NCBI RefSeq assembly: GCF_007859765.1
Contig: NZ_SIHJ01000001.1
Coordinates: 3,141,156 to 3,205,155, forward strand
Source: Posidoniimonas corsicana
Lineage (GTDB): Bacteria; Planctomycetota; Planctomycetia; Pirellulales; Lacipirellulaceae
Direction of reading: 5' to 3'
Length of the DNA stretch: 64,000 nt
The position numbers and the translations under genes were made by a program. This document shows positions 34,338 to 42,884 of the stretch, piece after piece. The notes beneath the pieces are model-generated. The model saw nothing but the letters and a program-made list of their open reading frames with translations. It made no database searches and was not told where the DNA came from. Each line of letters starts with the position of its first letter. The first letter of the stretch is position 1.

Positions 34338-34649
34338 TTAGTCCTTCGACGCCTTCTTGGCCTTGTCGCCGGTCGACTTCTTCGCCTTCTCGCCCTTGGC
34401 CTTCCCGCCGTCGCTCTTGGAGGACTCGCCCTTCTTGTCCTTCTCGGCGGCCTTCTTGTAAGAGTCGCTGCGGTAGTCGGTCTCGTAGAATCCGGAGCCC
34501 TTGAACACCACCGCGGCGCCGGTGCCGAACAGCCGCCGCAGCTTCAGCTTGCCGCACTCGGGGCACTTCTTCTTGACCGGGTCGTTGATCCCCTGGAACA
34601 GCTCGAACTCGTGGTCGCACGCGTCGCACTGGTAATCGTACGTGGGCAT
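34338..34649 (-). CDS. FmdB-family zinc-ribbon protein
   Basis: A 103-residue protein with the FmdB regulatory-protein signature at the very N terminus: [16 protein letters not shown], then [14 protein letters not shown], and the conserved [12 protein letters not shown]. This is a single zinc ribbon. The C-terminal 40 residues are Lys/Ser/Gly low complexity. FmdB was named as a putative regulator of amidase genes, but most members have no known role. It lies 42 bp after grpE in the same operon. Confidence 0.88.
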
Positions 34650-34691: not shown

Positions 34692-35237
34692 CTACGCGTC
34701 GGCGGAGGCGGGGCCAGACGACACAATCACCTGGCTCGCCCGCACGACGCGGTCGTGCATCTTGTAGCCAGTCTGCACGTCCTGGACGACCGAGCCGGCC
34801 GGCGCGTCGTCCGAGGGCTGCTGCAGGATCGCCTCGTGGAAGTCGGGGTTGAACGGCTGGCCGGCCGCCTCGATCGGCTCGCACTTGTGCTGCGTGAGCG
34901 TGGTGACCAGCTGCTGGCGGACCAGCTTGATCCCCTCTAGCAGACCACCGGTCTGGCCCTCCTTCTCGGCCGACTCGATCGCGCGGTCCACGTTGTCCAG
35001 CACCGGCAGCAGGTCGCGGGCCAGCGGCAGCGCGGCGTACTTGCGTTCTTCTTGCAGCTGGCGGGCGCCGCGGGAAATCTGGTTCTGCACCTCGGCCTGC
35101 AGACGCAGGATGCGGTCGTTGGCCGCCGCCAGCTGGTCCTCCGGCGTGGGCTCAGCGGGCTGCCCGGCGTCATCCAGCTGGATGTCCTCCACCGTCACGT
35201 CCAGGCCCTCTTCGTTGGGTTGCTCTTTCTCTGCCAT
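34692..35237 (-). CDS. grpE: Nucleotide exchange factor GrpE
   Basis: A 181-residue DnaK co-chaperone. An acidic disordered N terminus is followed by the long dimerisation helix (RILRLQAEVQNQ, with coiled-coil pattern), the four-helix region (LARDLLPVLDNVDRAIE) and the C-terminal beta-wing (NPDFHEAILQQP, VVQDVQTGYKMHDRVVRASQVIVS). Family-standard length. It starts 1 bp after the dnaJ stop codon. No dnaK gene is in the window. Confidence 0.95.
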   Translation of the reverse strand: MAEKEQPNEEGLDVTVEDIQLDDAGQPAEPTPEDQLAAANDRILRLQAEVQNQISRGARQLQEERKYAALPLARDLLPVLDNVDRAIESAEKEGQTGGLLEGIKLVRQQLVTTLTQHKCEPIEAAGQPFNPDFHEAILQQPSDDAPAGSVVQDVQTGYKMHDRVVRASQVIVSSGPASADA

Positions 35238-35238
35238 C

Positions 35239-36387
35239 TCAGTCCTCCACCTCGGCGGGCTCCTGCTCGTGCGTGAAGTATTCCTTCAGCTGACCGAAGA
35301 AGGTCTTACGCTCGGGCGCCACGTTCTTGTGTTCCAGCTGCGCGAGCTCGCGGAGCTTCTGCTTCTCTTCCTTCGACAGCTTCTTGGGGACCTCGATCGT
35401 AACCTGCACGAGCAGGTCCCCCAAGCCTCGCCGCCGGGGATCGGGCATGCCCTCGCCCGCCATCCGGAACACCTCGCCGGACTGGGTGCCGGCGGGCACC
35501 TCGAACTCGGTCTTGCCGTGCAGGGTCGGGATCTCGATCGTGCTGCCCAGCGCGGCCTGCGTGTAGCTGATCGGCACGCGGCAGACCAGGTGCTGCCCCT
35601 CCCGCTCGAAGAGCGGGTGCTGCAGCACCGAGACGAAGCAGTAGCAGTCGCCGCGGGGGCCGCCGCCGGGGCTCGGCTCGCCCTCGCCCGAGATCCGCAC
35701 CCGCATGCCGTCGTCGACGCCGGCGGGGATCTTCACCTTGGTCACGACCCGGCGGAGCTTCTGGCCGGCGCCGCGGCAGTCGGTGCACGGGCGGCCGACC
35801 GTCGAGCCCTCGCCGTGGCAGGCGGGGCAGGTGGTCTGCATGCGGATGATGCCGGCCGACTGGATCACCCTGCCGGCGCCGCCGCAGTAGCCGCACTGCT
35901 CGCGTGAGCTGCCCGGCGCGGCGCCGGAGCCGCTGCAGTTCTCGCACGCCTCGTGGCGTTGGAACTCGACCTCCTTCTCGCACCCCTCGGCGGCCTCGTG
36001 CAGCGTGAGCGTAACGTCGCACCGCACGTCGCGGCCCGGCCGGGCGCGGCCACGGCCGCCACGCTGCCCGCCAAACATGTCGCCGAAGATGTCGCCGAAG
36101 GCCGAGAAGATGTCCTCGACGTCGTGGAAGTGGCCCCCGCCGCCGCCCCCCGCGCCGTTCACCCCGGCGTGGCCGAAGCGGTCGTAGCGGGAACGCTTGT
36201 CGGCGTCCGACAGCACCTCGAACGCCTCGGCCGCCTCCTTGAACTGGGCGACCGCCTCATCGTCGCCCGGGTTCTTGTCCGGGTGGTACTTGATGGCGAG
36301 CTTGCGGTAGGCGCTGGAGATCACCTCGCCGGACGCGGTGCGTTCGACGCCAAGCACTTCGTAGTAGCAGCGTTGGGTGGCCATCAT
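35239..36387 (-). CDS. dnaJ: Chaperone protein DnaJ
   Basis: A 382-residue DnaK co-chaperone with complete class I architecture: J domain (residues 7-72, HPD motif in [10 protein letters not shown]), Gly/Phe linker, four CxxCxGxG-type zinc repeats ([32 protein letters not shown]), then the substrate-binding C-terminal domains. Two adjacent ATG codons allow a start at 36387 or 36384. It overlaps nothing and is followed by grpE after 1 bp, clearly one transcript. Confidence 0.96.
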
Positions 36388-36531: not shown

Positions 36532-38151
<1,620 letters not shown>

Positions 38152-38253: not shown

Positions 38254-38556
38254 CTAGACAGCGACCTTCGCCAGGATGTCGCTCTCGCGGAGGATCTTGT
38301 ACTCCACGCCATCGACCTCCACCTCGGAGCCGCCGTACTTGCCGTAGATGACCTCGTCGCCGATCTTGACGGACAGCTCGCCGCGGGCGCCGCTGTCCAG
38401 CAGCTTGCCGACGCCGACCGCCACGACCTTGCCGCGTTGGGGCTTCTCGCGGGCCGCGTCCGGCAGCACGATGCCGCCGGCGGTCATCTCTTCGGCGTCG
38501 ACGGGGTGAACAACAACGCGGTCATCGAGCGGACGCAGGTTAAGGGACTTCGCCAT
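38254..38556 (-). CDS. groS: Co-chaperonin GroES
   Basis: A 100-residue heptameric lid of GroEL. The N-terminal [29 protein letters not shown] contains the mobile loop with its hydrophobic IVL tripeptide, and the C-terminal [24 protein letters not shown] is conserved. It lies between two groEL genes, and the single GroES presumably serves both. Confidence 0.96.
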
Positions 38557-38642: not shown

Positions 38643-40346
<1,704 letters not shown>

Positions 40347-40491
40347 TGTTTGACCTCCTGAGGGTGATTCTTGACCCATGCGGGCCGGGAGTCTTCTTCG
40401 CGTTCCCGCCGGCGGGGCCGACGGGTCGGGGTGTGCGTTGAATGGGGCTGCGGTCCGTTATTGGCAGGCGCAGCCTGTCCGCCCCTGCTGA

Positions 40492-40509
40492 ATGCAATCA
40501 CCGTGCCAG
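40492..40509 (-). promoter_or_regulatory. Sigma-54 (-24/-12) promoter for the chaperone operon
   Basis: On the minus strand CTGGCACGGTGATTGCAT matches the RpoN consensus (YTGGCACG, 4 nt, TTGCW) at every defined position, with the GG and GC dinucleotides correctly spaced. It predicts a transcript start near 40480 and a leader of about 135 nt before the groEL GTG. Confidence 0.65.
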
Positions 40510-40752
40510 CAACCCGAACAACGCCCTAAGTCGCTATTTGAGAATGCCTTACAGAGCTCGGCTCGCTTCCGCCGAACAAGGCCGGCCGGCAAGGGCTGCC
40601 AAACTGGCAGCGGGAGAGGATTGGCTCGCGGTGCGGCCAAACCGGAATGCCCCCCTCGGGGCTGGCGGCTCGCTCAGCGGGGATTTTCCTACCGAATCGC
40701 CGGATGGCGCGTAAATGCTGTCGCAATACCCCTTGGCGGGGCGATGTCGCAC

Positions 40753-40782
40753 TTAAGCTGTGGGTCGCAAACCCCCTATACT
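40753..40782 (+). promoter_or_regulatory. Possible sigma-70 promoter for the EIIA-SLC4 gene
   Basis: TTAAGC (40753-40758) and TATACT (40777-40782) are 18 bp apart. The -10 box matches at five of six positions. It lies 54 bp before the GTG start. Confidence 0.4.
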
Positions 40783-40835
40783 CTCAGCACCCCGCGGGCG
40801 CCCGGCCCGTCGTCATGAGATCCACGAGGTGATTT

Positions 40836-42884
40836 GTGCAGGTATTGCGAGACTGCTTCAGCCCCGACAACACCCTGCTGGACGTTCCGGCCCACGACCT
40901 GCCCACGGCGTTCCGGGTGGCGGTAGAACACCTGGTGGACACGGGACGCGTAGACGCCGAACGGGCGGCGGATGTCCAGACGGCGCTGCTGCGCCGCGAG
41001 GCCGAGGCCTCGACCGCGATCGGCCACGCCGTGGCGGTTCCGCACGTCTACCTGGACGCGATCAAGGAGCCGGTCGTGCTGTTCGTCCGGCTCGAGCACC
41101 CGATCAACCTGGGCGCTCCCGACGGCGTACCGACGCAACACCTGTTCTTCCTGCTGGGACCGCCCAACGCCACGTCCGCGCACCTGGACACACTGGCCAG
41201 CGTCGCGCGGCTCATGGCCGACGACGAGTTCCGGTACGAGGTGGGCAAGGCCCGCACGCCCGACGACCTGGCGGCCTCGCTAGAAAGCTACATCGACCGC
41301 AACACGGCCGCCCCGGAAGAAACGCCGGTCGCCGACGTCGGCCTCGAATGGACCGGGCGATTCGCCGGCGGCTTGCGGCAGGACGTCGCCCGCAAGCGGC
41401 CGTGGTACGTCAAGGACTTCGTTGACGGGCTGCACGCCAAGTGCGTTGGGTCGGCGGTGTTCCTGTTCTTCGCGTGCCTTGCCCCGGCGCTGACCTTCGG
41501 CGGCCTGCTGGCGGCGGGCACCGGCAACGAGATCGGCACGGTCGAGATCATTGTCGGCACCGCGCTGAGCGGGGTGCTGTACGCGCTGCTGGGCGGGCAG
41601 CCGCTGATCATCCTCGGCTTCACCGGCCCGGTGCTGGTGCTGACCGTCAAGCTCTACGAGCTGTGCCAAGCGTGGGACGCGCCGTTCCTGCCGACCTACG
41701 GCTGGGTCGGCCTGTGGGCGGCAGGGTTCCTGCTGCTGATGTCTGTGCTGGACGCCAGCTTCCTGATGAAGTACTTCACGCGGTTCACCGACGAGATCTT
41801 CAGCGCGTTGATGTCGCTGATCTTCATCCACTACGCGATCGTCAAGCTCGCCGACGAGTTCCAGGGCCTGGAGGCGGACCAGCACCACGACACGGCCCTC
41901 CTGACGCTGCTGCTGGCGCTCGGCACGTTCTACATCGCGATGAGCCTCTCGGGCCTCCGCCGCAGCAGCTACCTGCTGCCCTGGATGCGCGAGTTCCTGG
42001 CCGACTTCGGGCCGATGATTGCGTTGGGCGCTATGAGCATCGTCGCGTTCAACCTGGACGAGGTGTTCCTCGACACGCTGCAGGCGCCCGACCAGTTCGG
42101 CACCACCTCGGGAAGGCCTTGGCTGGTCGACCTGTGGGCGGCGCCCCCGTGGCTCCGCCTGGCGGCGGCCGCGCCCGGCCTGCTGATCGCCGTGCTGATC
42201 TACCTGGTGCAGAACATCACCGCCCGGCTGGTGAACAGCCCCGACCACAAGCTGCGGCACGGGCACGGCTACCACCTCGACCTGGCCGTGCTGGCGGGGC
42301 TGACCGGGCTCTGCTCGCTGTTCGGCCTGCCCTGGTTTGCGGCCGCCACGGTCCGCTCGCTGAACCACGTCCGCAGCCTGGCGACCTTCGAAGAGGTGGC
42401 CCGGCCCGGCAGCTCGCCCCACGAGCGCATCATCCACGTCCGCGAGAACCGGCTGACCGGCATCGCCATCCACGGCCTGATCGCGTGCGCCCTGCTGCTG
42501 CTGCCCTACCTGCGGTACGTGCCGCTGGCGGTGCTGTACGGCGTGTTTCTGTTCATGGGCGTGGTGTCGATGGCCGGCAACCAGTTCTTCGAGCGGCTCA
42601 GCCTGTGGGTCAAGGACCCGGACCTGTACCCGATGACCCACTACATCCGCCGGGCGCCGATCTGGGTGATCCACTCGTTCACCGGCGTGCAGTTCGTCTG
42701 CCTGGCCGTGCTGTGGGTGGTGAACCTCAACAAGAACCCGGCGATCAGCATCCTGTTCCCCATGTTCGTCGCGTTGCTGGTGCCGGTGCGGTTCGCGCTG
42801 AACCGGTTCTACAAGCGGCCGCACCTCGAGGCGCTCGACGCCGCCGAGGAGCCGGAGGACGAGGCCACCCACTGGGCCGCGTAG
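40836..42884 (+). CDS. PTS EIIA-like domain fused to SLC4-type anion (bicarbonate) transporter
   Basis: 682 residues from a GTG start with GAGGTG a few bases upstream. Residues 1-155 resemble PTS EIIA type 2 domains, with TAIGHAVAVPH (His64, His70) at the place of the phosphorylated active-site His and VVLFVRL after it. Residues 190-660 form a polytopic SLC4/HCO3-transporter domain: the opening LHAKCVGSAVFLFFACLAPALTFGGLL and GGQPLIILGFTGPVLVL are the band-3-family signatures of TM1 and TM3. About 12-14 spans are expected, ending in an acidic cytoplasmic tail. It probably moves bicarbonate or another anion across the inner membrane. The EIIA domain may regulate it. Confidence 0.87.
   Translation: MQVLRDCFSPDNTLLDVPAHDLPTAFRVAVEHLVDTGRVDAERAADVQTALLRREAEASTAIGHAVAVPHVYLDAIKEPVVLFVRLEHPINLGAPDGVPTQHLFFLLGPPNATSAHLDTLASVARLMADDEFRYEVGKARTPDDLAASLESYIDRNTAAPEETPVADVGLEWTGRFAGGLRQDVARKRPWYVKDFVDGLHAKCVGSAVFLFFACLAPALTFGGLLAAGTGNEIGTVEIIVGTALSGVLYALLGGQPLIILGFTGPVLVLTVKLYELCQAWDAPFLPTYGWVGLWAAGFLLLMSVLDASFLMKYFTRFTDEIFSALMSLIFIHYAIVKLADEFQGLEADQHHDTALLTLLLALGTFYIAMSLSGLRRSSYLLPWMREFLADFGPMIALGAMSIVAFNLDEVFLDTLQAPDQFGTTSGRPWLVDLWAAPPWLRLAAAAPGLLIAVLIYLVQNITARLVNSPDHKLRHGHGYHLDLAVLAGLTGLCSLFGLPWFAAATVRSLNHVRSLATFEEVARPGSSPHERIIHVRENRLTGIAIHGLIACALLLLPYLRYVPLAVLYGVFLFMGVVSMAGNQFFERLSLWVKDPDLYPMTHYIRRAPIWVIHSFTGVQFVCLAVLWVVNLNKNPAISILFPMFVALLVPVRFALNRFYKRPHLEALDAAEEPEDEATHWAA

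Follow-up and report, generated by a model that had tools for sequence, protein, structure and literature searches.

The main chaperone operon in the window analysed here (the whole 64,000-nucleotide stretch from Posidoniimonas corsicana) very probably belongs to a chaperone regulon governed by sigma-54 and an upstream palindrome (UAS). The promoter and the enhancer are both strongly supported by comparison of sequences across genomes; the identity of the activator, the binding of the palindrome by an enhancer-binding protein (EBP) and the inducing signal are what we infer from them. An initial annotation of this DNA had described the promoter and proposed control by RpoN and an EBP; its observation and its inference hold but understate the case, as the palindrome, the regulon (dnaK, hsp20, clpB, and a second groESL) and the phylum-wide reach of the system lie beyond it.

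The groEL1 promoter and its upstream palindrome

The operon lies on the minus strand and comprises groEL1 (38643-40346, the first gene, with a GTG start), groES (38254-38556), groEL2 (36532-38151), dnaJ (35239-36387), and grpE (34692-35237); the Pfam domains agree with the order groEL-groES-groEL-dnaJ-grpE given in the initial annotation. The possible last gene of the predicted transcript, on the same strand, encodes a zinc-ribbon protein (Zn_ribbon_8 by Pfam; 34338-34649). A regulatory region of 489 bp separates groEL1 from a divergent transporter gene on the plus strand (40836-42884), toward which no high-scoring sigma-54-like site was found (L093, plus strand); this gene is probably outside the regulon. 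Pfam assigns its product a PTS EIIA domain at the N terminus and, fused to it, an HCO3- transporter domain of the band-3 type, an uncommon pairing.

The predicted sigma-54 promoter, CTGGCACGGTGATTGCAT (40492-40509, minus strand), is an exact match to the consensus TGGCAC-N5-TTGCW, with the -24 GG dinucleotide at 40507-40506 and the -12 GC dinucleotide at 40495-40494; its core, TGGCACGGTGATTGCA, occupies 40493-40508. The fit to the -24/-12 consensus had been reported with the exact sequence, strand, and coordinates, together with a distance of 146 bp to the groEL start, and the GTG at 40346, which stands behind AGGAGG, gives the same spacing. Judging from the consensus spacing, transcription would start near 40482. 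The exact pattern TGGCACNNNNNTTGCW has 9 matches in the 6.77-Mb genome versus 3 for the reversed control, and with one mismatch allowed the 64-kb window holds 1 match versus 1.6 expected, which is not significant alone; because a pattern test on a single window is uninformative, the significance of the site must come from comparison. No sigma-70-like site was found in the region upstream of groEL1; GroEL is required at all times, so an additional basal promoter probably exists, although none was found in this region.

Within the zone in which the initial annotation had suggested looking for an enhancer (40590-40710) lies a perfect palindrome, CTGCCA-GTT-TGGCAG (40596-40610, no strand assigned), which is also conserved ahead of chaperone genes across the phylum and which, with 7-bp arms, reads GCTGCCA-GTT-TGGCAGC (40595-40611). 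The 15-base core, CTGCCA-N3-TGGCAG, is a putative docking site for an EBP; 87 bp separate its end from the -24 element downstream. Taken singly, the UAS shows no enrichment in the P. corsicana genome (25 matches versus 42 for the control), and therefore only the pair of UAS and promoter, hereafter the composite, is informative. A second copy of the UAS lies no more than 80 bp away at 38 of 116 composite loci, versus 5 of 116 in a control stretch. In the window, a possible degenerate second copy, ATTCCGGTTTGGCCG (40634-40648, no strand assigned), is found 38 bp upstream of the first; it is weak, and with 4 mismatches it was rejected as too degenerate to be a dependable site.

Near full-length GroEL1 orthologues (80-100% identity) are present in 33 of 43 family genomes, beside other GroEL paralogues, and 30 family loci, including that of P. 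corsicana, were examined for both elements. In all 30 loci, which share descent and hence are not independent but nonetheless differ in their spacings, the best sigma-54 match lies 124-231 bp before the groEL1 start and scores 0.92-1.00; the score is at least 0.95 in 28 of them. That value is not attained in any of 119 control windows taken from these loci, and this conservation (30/30 orthologous loci, 0/119 control windows) marks the predicted promoter as more than a chance match. A palindrome with at most two mismatches is found upstream of the sigma-54 site in 30/30 loci, and with at most one mismatch in 28/30, versus 0.47% and 0.05%, respectively, of shuffled sequences. The gap between the palindrome and the -24 element is 73-102 bp in these loci, with one case of 132 bp. 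Conservation in relatives, which the initial annotation had proposed to check, thus holds throughout the family and, as described below, beyond it.

Heat-shock regulators and the reach of the composite

The rpoN gene, whose absence the initial annotation had named as a point that would count against its proposal, is present in P. corsicana (PF04552 at G000:C1:2940549, E = 6.5e-61) and in 18 of 19 relatives, the sole gap being a 66%-complete genome. HrcA was found in 0 of 19 relatives, P. corsicana included, and 7 control genomes score. No CIRCE element (TTAGCACTC-N9-GAGTGCTAA) occurs in the window with up to 3 mismatches or in the intergenic region with up to 6, in agreement with the earlier remark that none is visible. 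A search for RpoH (TIGR02392) gave no protein above the cut-off in any of the 19 relatives (best score 162 bits versus a cut-off of 323 bits) and turned up generic sigma-70 family proteins only; a sigma-32-type motif was likewise not found in the intergenic region. The presence of rpoN, the conservation, the palindrome, and the absence of HrcA support the earlier inference of control by RpoN and an EBP instead of sigma-32 or HrcA.

The initial annotation had also drawn an analogy to Bradyrhizobium, in which groESL is controlled by NifA and sigma-54, one groESL copy belonging to the nitrogen-fixation regulon, and in which NifA sites have the form TGT-N10-ACA. The analogy stands as regards promoter class, as both operons combine a -24/-12 promoter with an enhancer-binding activator (predicted in the present case), but it does not extend to the NifA site: no TGT-N10-ACA was found in 40347-40835 on the operon strand. 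The system described here further differs in covering the whole chaperone set.

The P. corsicana genome contains 8 perfect TGCCA-N3-TGGCA sites, 4 of which are followed by a sigma-54-like site and then a chaperone gene, these targets being groEL1, dnaK, hsp20, and groES-groEL3. Two UAS copies lie 50 bp apart before groES-groEL3 and 54 bp apart before dnaK. Compared with groEL1, either the spacing (66-164 bp) or the match to the promoter (0.87-0.96) is looser at dnaK, hsp20, and groES, and the window site is the only match to the strict pair pattern in this genome. Across 292 Planctomycetota genomes, 46 composite matches were found in 38 genomes, versus 1 for the reversed control; the genes directly 3' of these composites include groEL, groES, dnaK, hsp20, clpB, and secA (the last two identified by their sequences).

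About 85,000 species genomes in a named collection were searched with a stricter composite, which is present in at least 119 stretches in named genomes, and 93 among the matches listed directly precede chaperone genes (35 dnaK, 35 groEL, 14 hsp20, 5 clpB, and 4 groES); also among the matches listed, it stands before a gene for an M48 (HtpX-type) protease. The matches listed come mostly from Phycisphaerales, Pirellulales, Planctomycetaceae, Sedimentisphaerales, and Thermoguttaceae. Outside the planctomycetes, composites precede chaperone genes in Gemmatimonadota (L115, L125, L131, and L165), Calditrichota (L134), and Bacteroidales (L143); the named-genome matches are largely metagenome-assembled and single non-planctomycete cases could be mis-binned, which is less likely for the four from Gemmatimonadota.

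Several other loci deserve mention. A record titled Alphaproteobacteria (L164) holds a groEL1-groES-groEL2 locus like those of Phycisphaerae and is probably mislabelled or mis-binned. Genes that do not encode chaperones follow some of the strict composites from Proteobacteria and Actinobacteria, and these cases were discounted as chance matches or separate systems. At three proteobacterial loci (L102, L112, and L117; possibly also L151 and L113), the strict composite precedes a gene for a small exported protein with the conserved pattern IAGxxPxxRPxGAP...WYTPFxRPGxxGPYDIR; L113 also encodes, close by, an EBP whose HTH helix reads SERSIYR, and these loci look like a separate sigma-54 system on the same operator. 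At L162, the composite lies before a gene for a small degenerate receiver-like protein (~140 aa), followed by an apparent ispG.

A candidate activator

P. corsicana has about 16 true EBPs. The search for an activator used composite-bearing genomes with very few EBPs, from which the EBPs were collected and a tree was built. One clade (L047) recurs, in G349 (2 EBPs), three Thermoguttaceae (2-3 EBPs), G341, G342, G350, G353, G361, G362, and P. corsicana itself. Its P. corsicana member, P0003 (G000:C2:309326; locus L288, 4380-5849, minus strand), has a receiver domain (REC, PF00072), a sigma-54 AAA+ domain (PF00158), and a Fis-type HTH domain (HTH_8, PF02954), and its HTH signature is GNRxxAAxxLGI[GS]ERTLYRK. 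Co-occurrence and gene context make it reasonably probable that an EBP of the P0003 type is the activator.

Regarding co-occurrence, all 38 composite-bearing genomes of the 292 have a best HTH-profile E value of 1e-17 or better and none of the ~57 genomes with a worse value has a composite, a tally that was counted by eye and is uncorrected for phylogeny. Many of the ~57 genomes with neither a composite nor a close HTH match belong to families f14, f23, f28, f30, f35, f46, and f62. The composite-bearing genomes of Gemmatimonadota and Bacteroidales each encode one EBP that has this HTH signature or one close to it, yet falls outside the L047 clade, and at two proteobacterial composite loci (L113 and L147) the nearby EBP carries a [GS]ER[TS][LI]YR recognition helix. 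As for gene context, locus L133 shows in a row a histidine kinase gene, an L047-like response-regulator EBP gene, two UAS copies, the promoter, and dnaK; in a Longimicrobiales genome, the genes near that of the signature-bearing EBP include lon and hslVU (named from their sequences). The P. corsicana candidate has no adjoining kinase gene, and no convincing UAS was seen near the candidate EBP genes that would indicate autoregulation, except at the dnaK junction of L133.

In the loop that contacts sigma-54, P0003 has GAFTDA where the usual motif is GAFTGA, a change shared by its Thermoguttaceae relatives and the candidate from G336; the motif is GAYTDA in the Bacteroidales candidate and GAFTGA in the Phycisphaerae members. 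The GAFTDA variant is not diagnostic, because another P. corsicana EBP (L048) has it too. In D. vulgaris, GAFTDA and GAYTDA are among the variants regarded as competent (PMC4641369), and a NorR protein with the same change (G266D) is active and escapes repression (PMC2941729).

Proposed circuit, known systems, and rival explanations

In the circuit we propose, sigma-54 RNA polymerase would transcribe the chaperone operon from the promoter at 40492-40509, and an NtrC-type EBP would dock on CTGCCA-N3-TGGCAG, some 90 bp upstream, reach the polymerase by DNA looping, and, when protein folding is under stress, open the promoter at the expense of ATP; the candidate EBP, P0003, is presumably phosphorylated by a histidine kinase. 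The same element would drive dnaK, hsp20, and the second groES-groEL here and clpB, the HtpX-type protease, and secA in relatives. Taken whole, a sigma-54 heat-shock regulon that is activated by one NtrC-type EBP and replaces control by RpoH and HrcA appears likely. A more tentative extension, slightly more apt to be wrong than right, is that one dedicated EBP with sigma-54 and CTGCCA-N3-TGGCAG replaces RpoH and HrcA across Planctomycetota, and that the same switch, with the same UAS and EBP recognition helix, also serves Gemmatimonadota, Calditrichota, and some Bacteroidota, being either ancient or spread as a unit.

Heating of R. baltica induces ClpB, the operon GroELs, Cpn10s, DnaJ, GrpE, Hsp20s, DnaK, and SecA and leaves the rpoH, rpoE, and rpoN transcripts unchanged (PMC2754498). 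This is what would be expected if the switch were the activity of the activator and not sigma factor abundance, which is the reading we prefer. That study left the cascade unexplained (PMC2754498); with the enhancer defined and a two-component candidate for the activator, the question becomes directly testable. If the circuit is correct, much of the phylum would switch on essential chaperones by ATP-driven activation and not by a heat-shock sigma factor or derepression, suggesting for many planctomycetes a control circuit unlike those of E. coli or Bacillus.

The RpoH (sigma-32) and HrcA/CIRCE systems share the target genes groESL, dnaK, grpE, dnaJ, clpB, and hsp20; unlike in those systems, activation at sigma-54 promoters is proposed here, with HrcA and CIRCE absent and RpoH below the cut-off. 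In Myxococcus xanthus, the HsfB-HsfA two-component system controls the heat-shock gene lonD. Like our proposal, it pairs a histidine kinase with an NtrC-like response regulator in the control of a heat-shock gene; it has been described for lonD, and we know of no shared UAS or chaperone-wide regulon in that system. The HsfBA phosphorelay is also found in PMC9109919. A 2025 survey in PLoS One reported an enrichment of predicted sigma-54 promoters among the GroEL, GroES, IbpA, GrpE, DnaJ, and DnaK COGs of Planctomycetota, and among chaperone COGs of Bacteroidota as well (PMC12316311). It draws the same inference for the same gene class but scores promoters by COG only, its main text mentioning no UAS or palindrome; what is new relative to it is the enhancer and the way it is paired with the promoter, the gene-by-gene regulon, and the candidate activator. 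Our literature search, outside which most subscription papers lay, found no report of the element or the activator. The parts (a sigma-54 promoter, a UAS, and an NtrC-type EBP) are classical; what is new, as far as we have found, is that they would together provide the general control of heat shock in a phylum.

The promoter and UAS could be correctly identified and yet be served by an EBP of another clade, such as L046 (HTH GIERSTLDRKIKRYG), or lineages could differ in the EBP used on the same site. An L046-type EBP adjoins groEL, divergently, in L160, and another is present in G363, which has the composite and is missing the L047 clade; however, none of the 4 EBPs of G361 or the 2 of G349, both composite-bearing genomes, belongs to the L046 clade, and the L047-type HTH signature recurs in composite-bearing Gemmatimonadota and Bacteroidales genomes. 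We regard activation by such other EBPs as unlikely, though by no means far-fetched. It is quite improbable that heat control is exerted by another sigma factor, the sigma-54 site being minor or non-thermal (e.g., for starvation or the cell cycle). Generic sigma-70-family proteins were found, and rpoH is stated to be present in the R. baltica genome (PMC2754498), but the two elements are jointly conserved in 30/30 loci and recur before dnaK, hsp20, and clpB, no RpoH exceeds the cut-off, the region has no sigma-70-like or sigma-32-like site, and the target genes coincide with those that are heat-induced in R. baltica.

Even less probable, in our view, is that the palindrome serves a repressor or some unrelated architectural protein, with an EBP bound elsewhere acting on the sigma-54 promoter. 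Dimeric repressors, too, typically recognise short perfect palindromes, but the variable spacing (67-102 bp upstream of the -24 element, in one case 132 bp) and the frequent tandem copies fit an enhancer and not an operator layout, and the palindrome co-occurs with sigma-54 sites. As to a functionless chance match to the consensus, lone degenerate matches are no rarity in 64 kb of sequence, but all the comparative data refute this reading as far as sequence comparison can, leaving its probability negligible.
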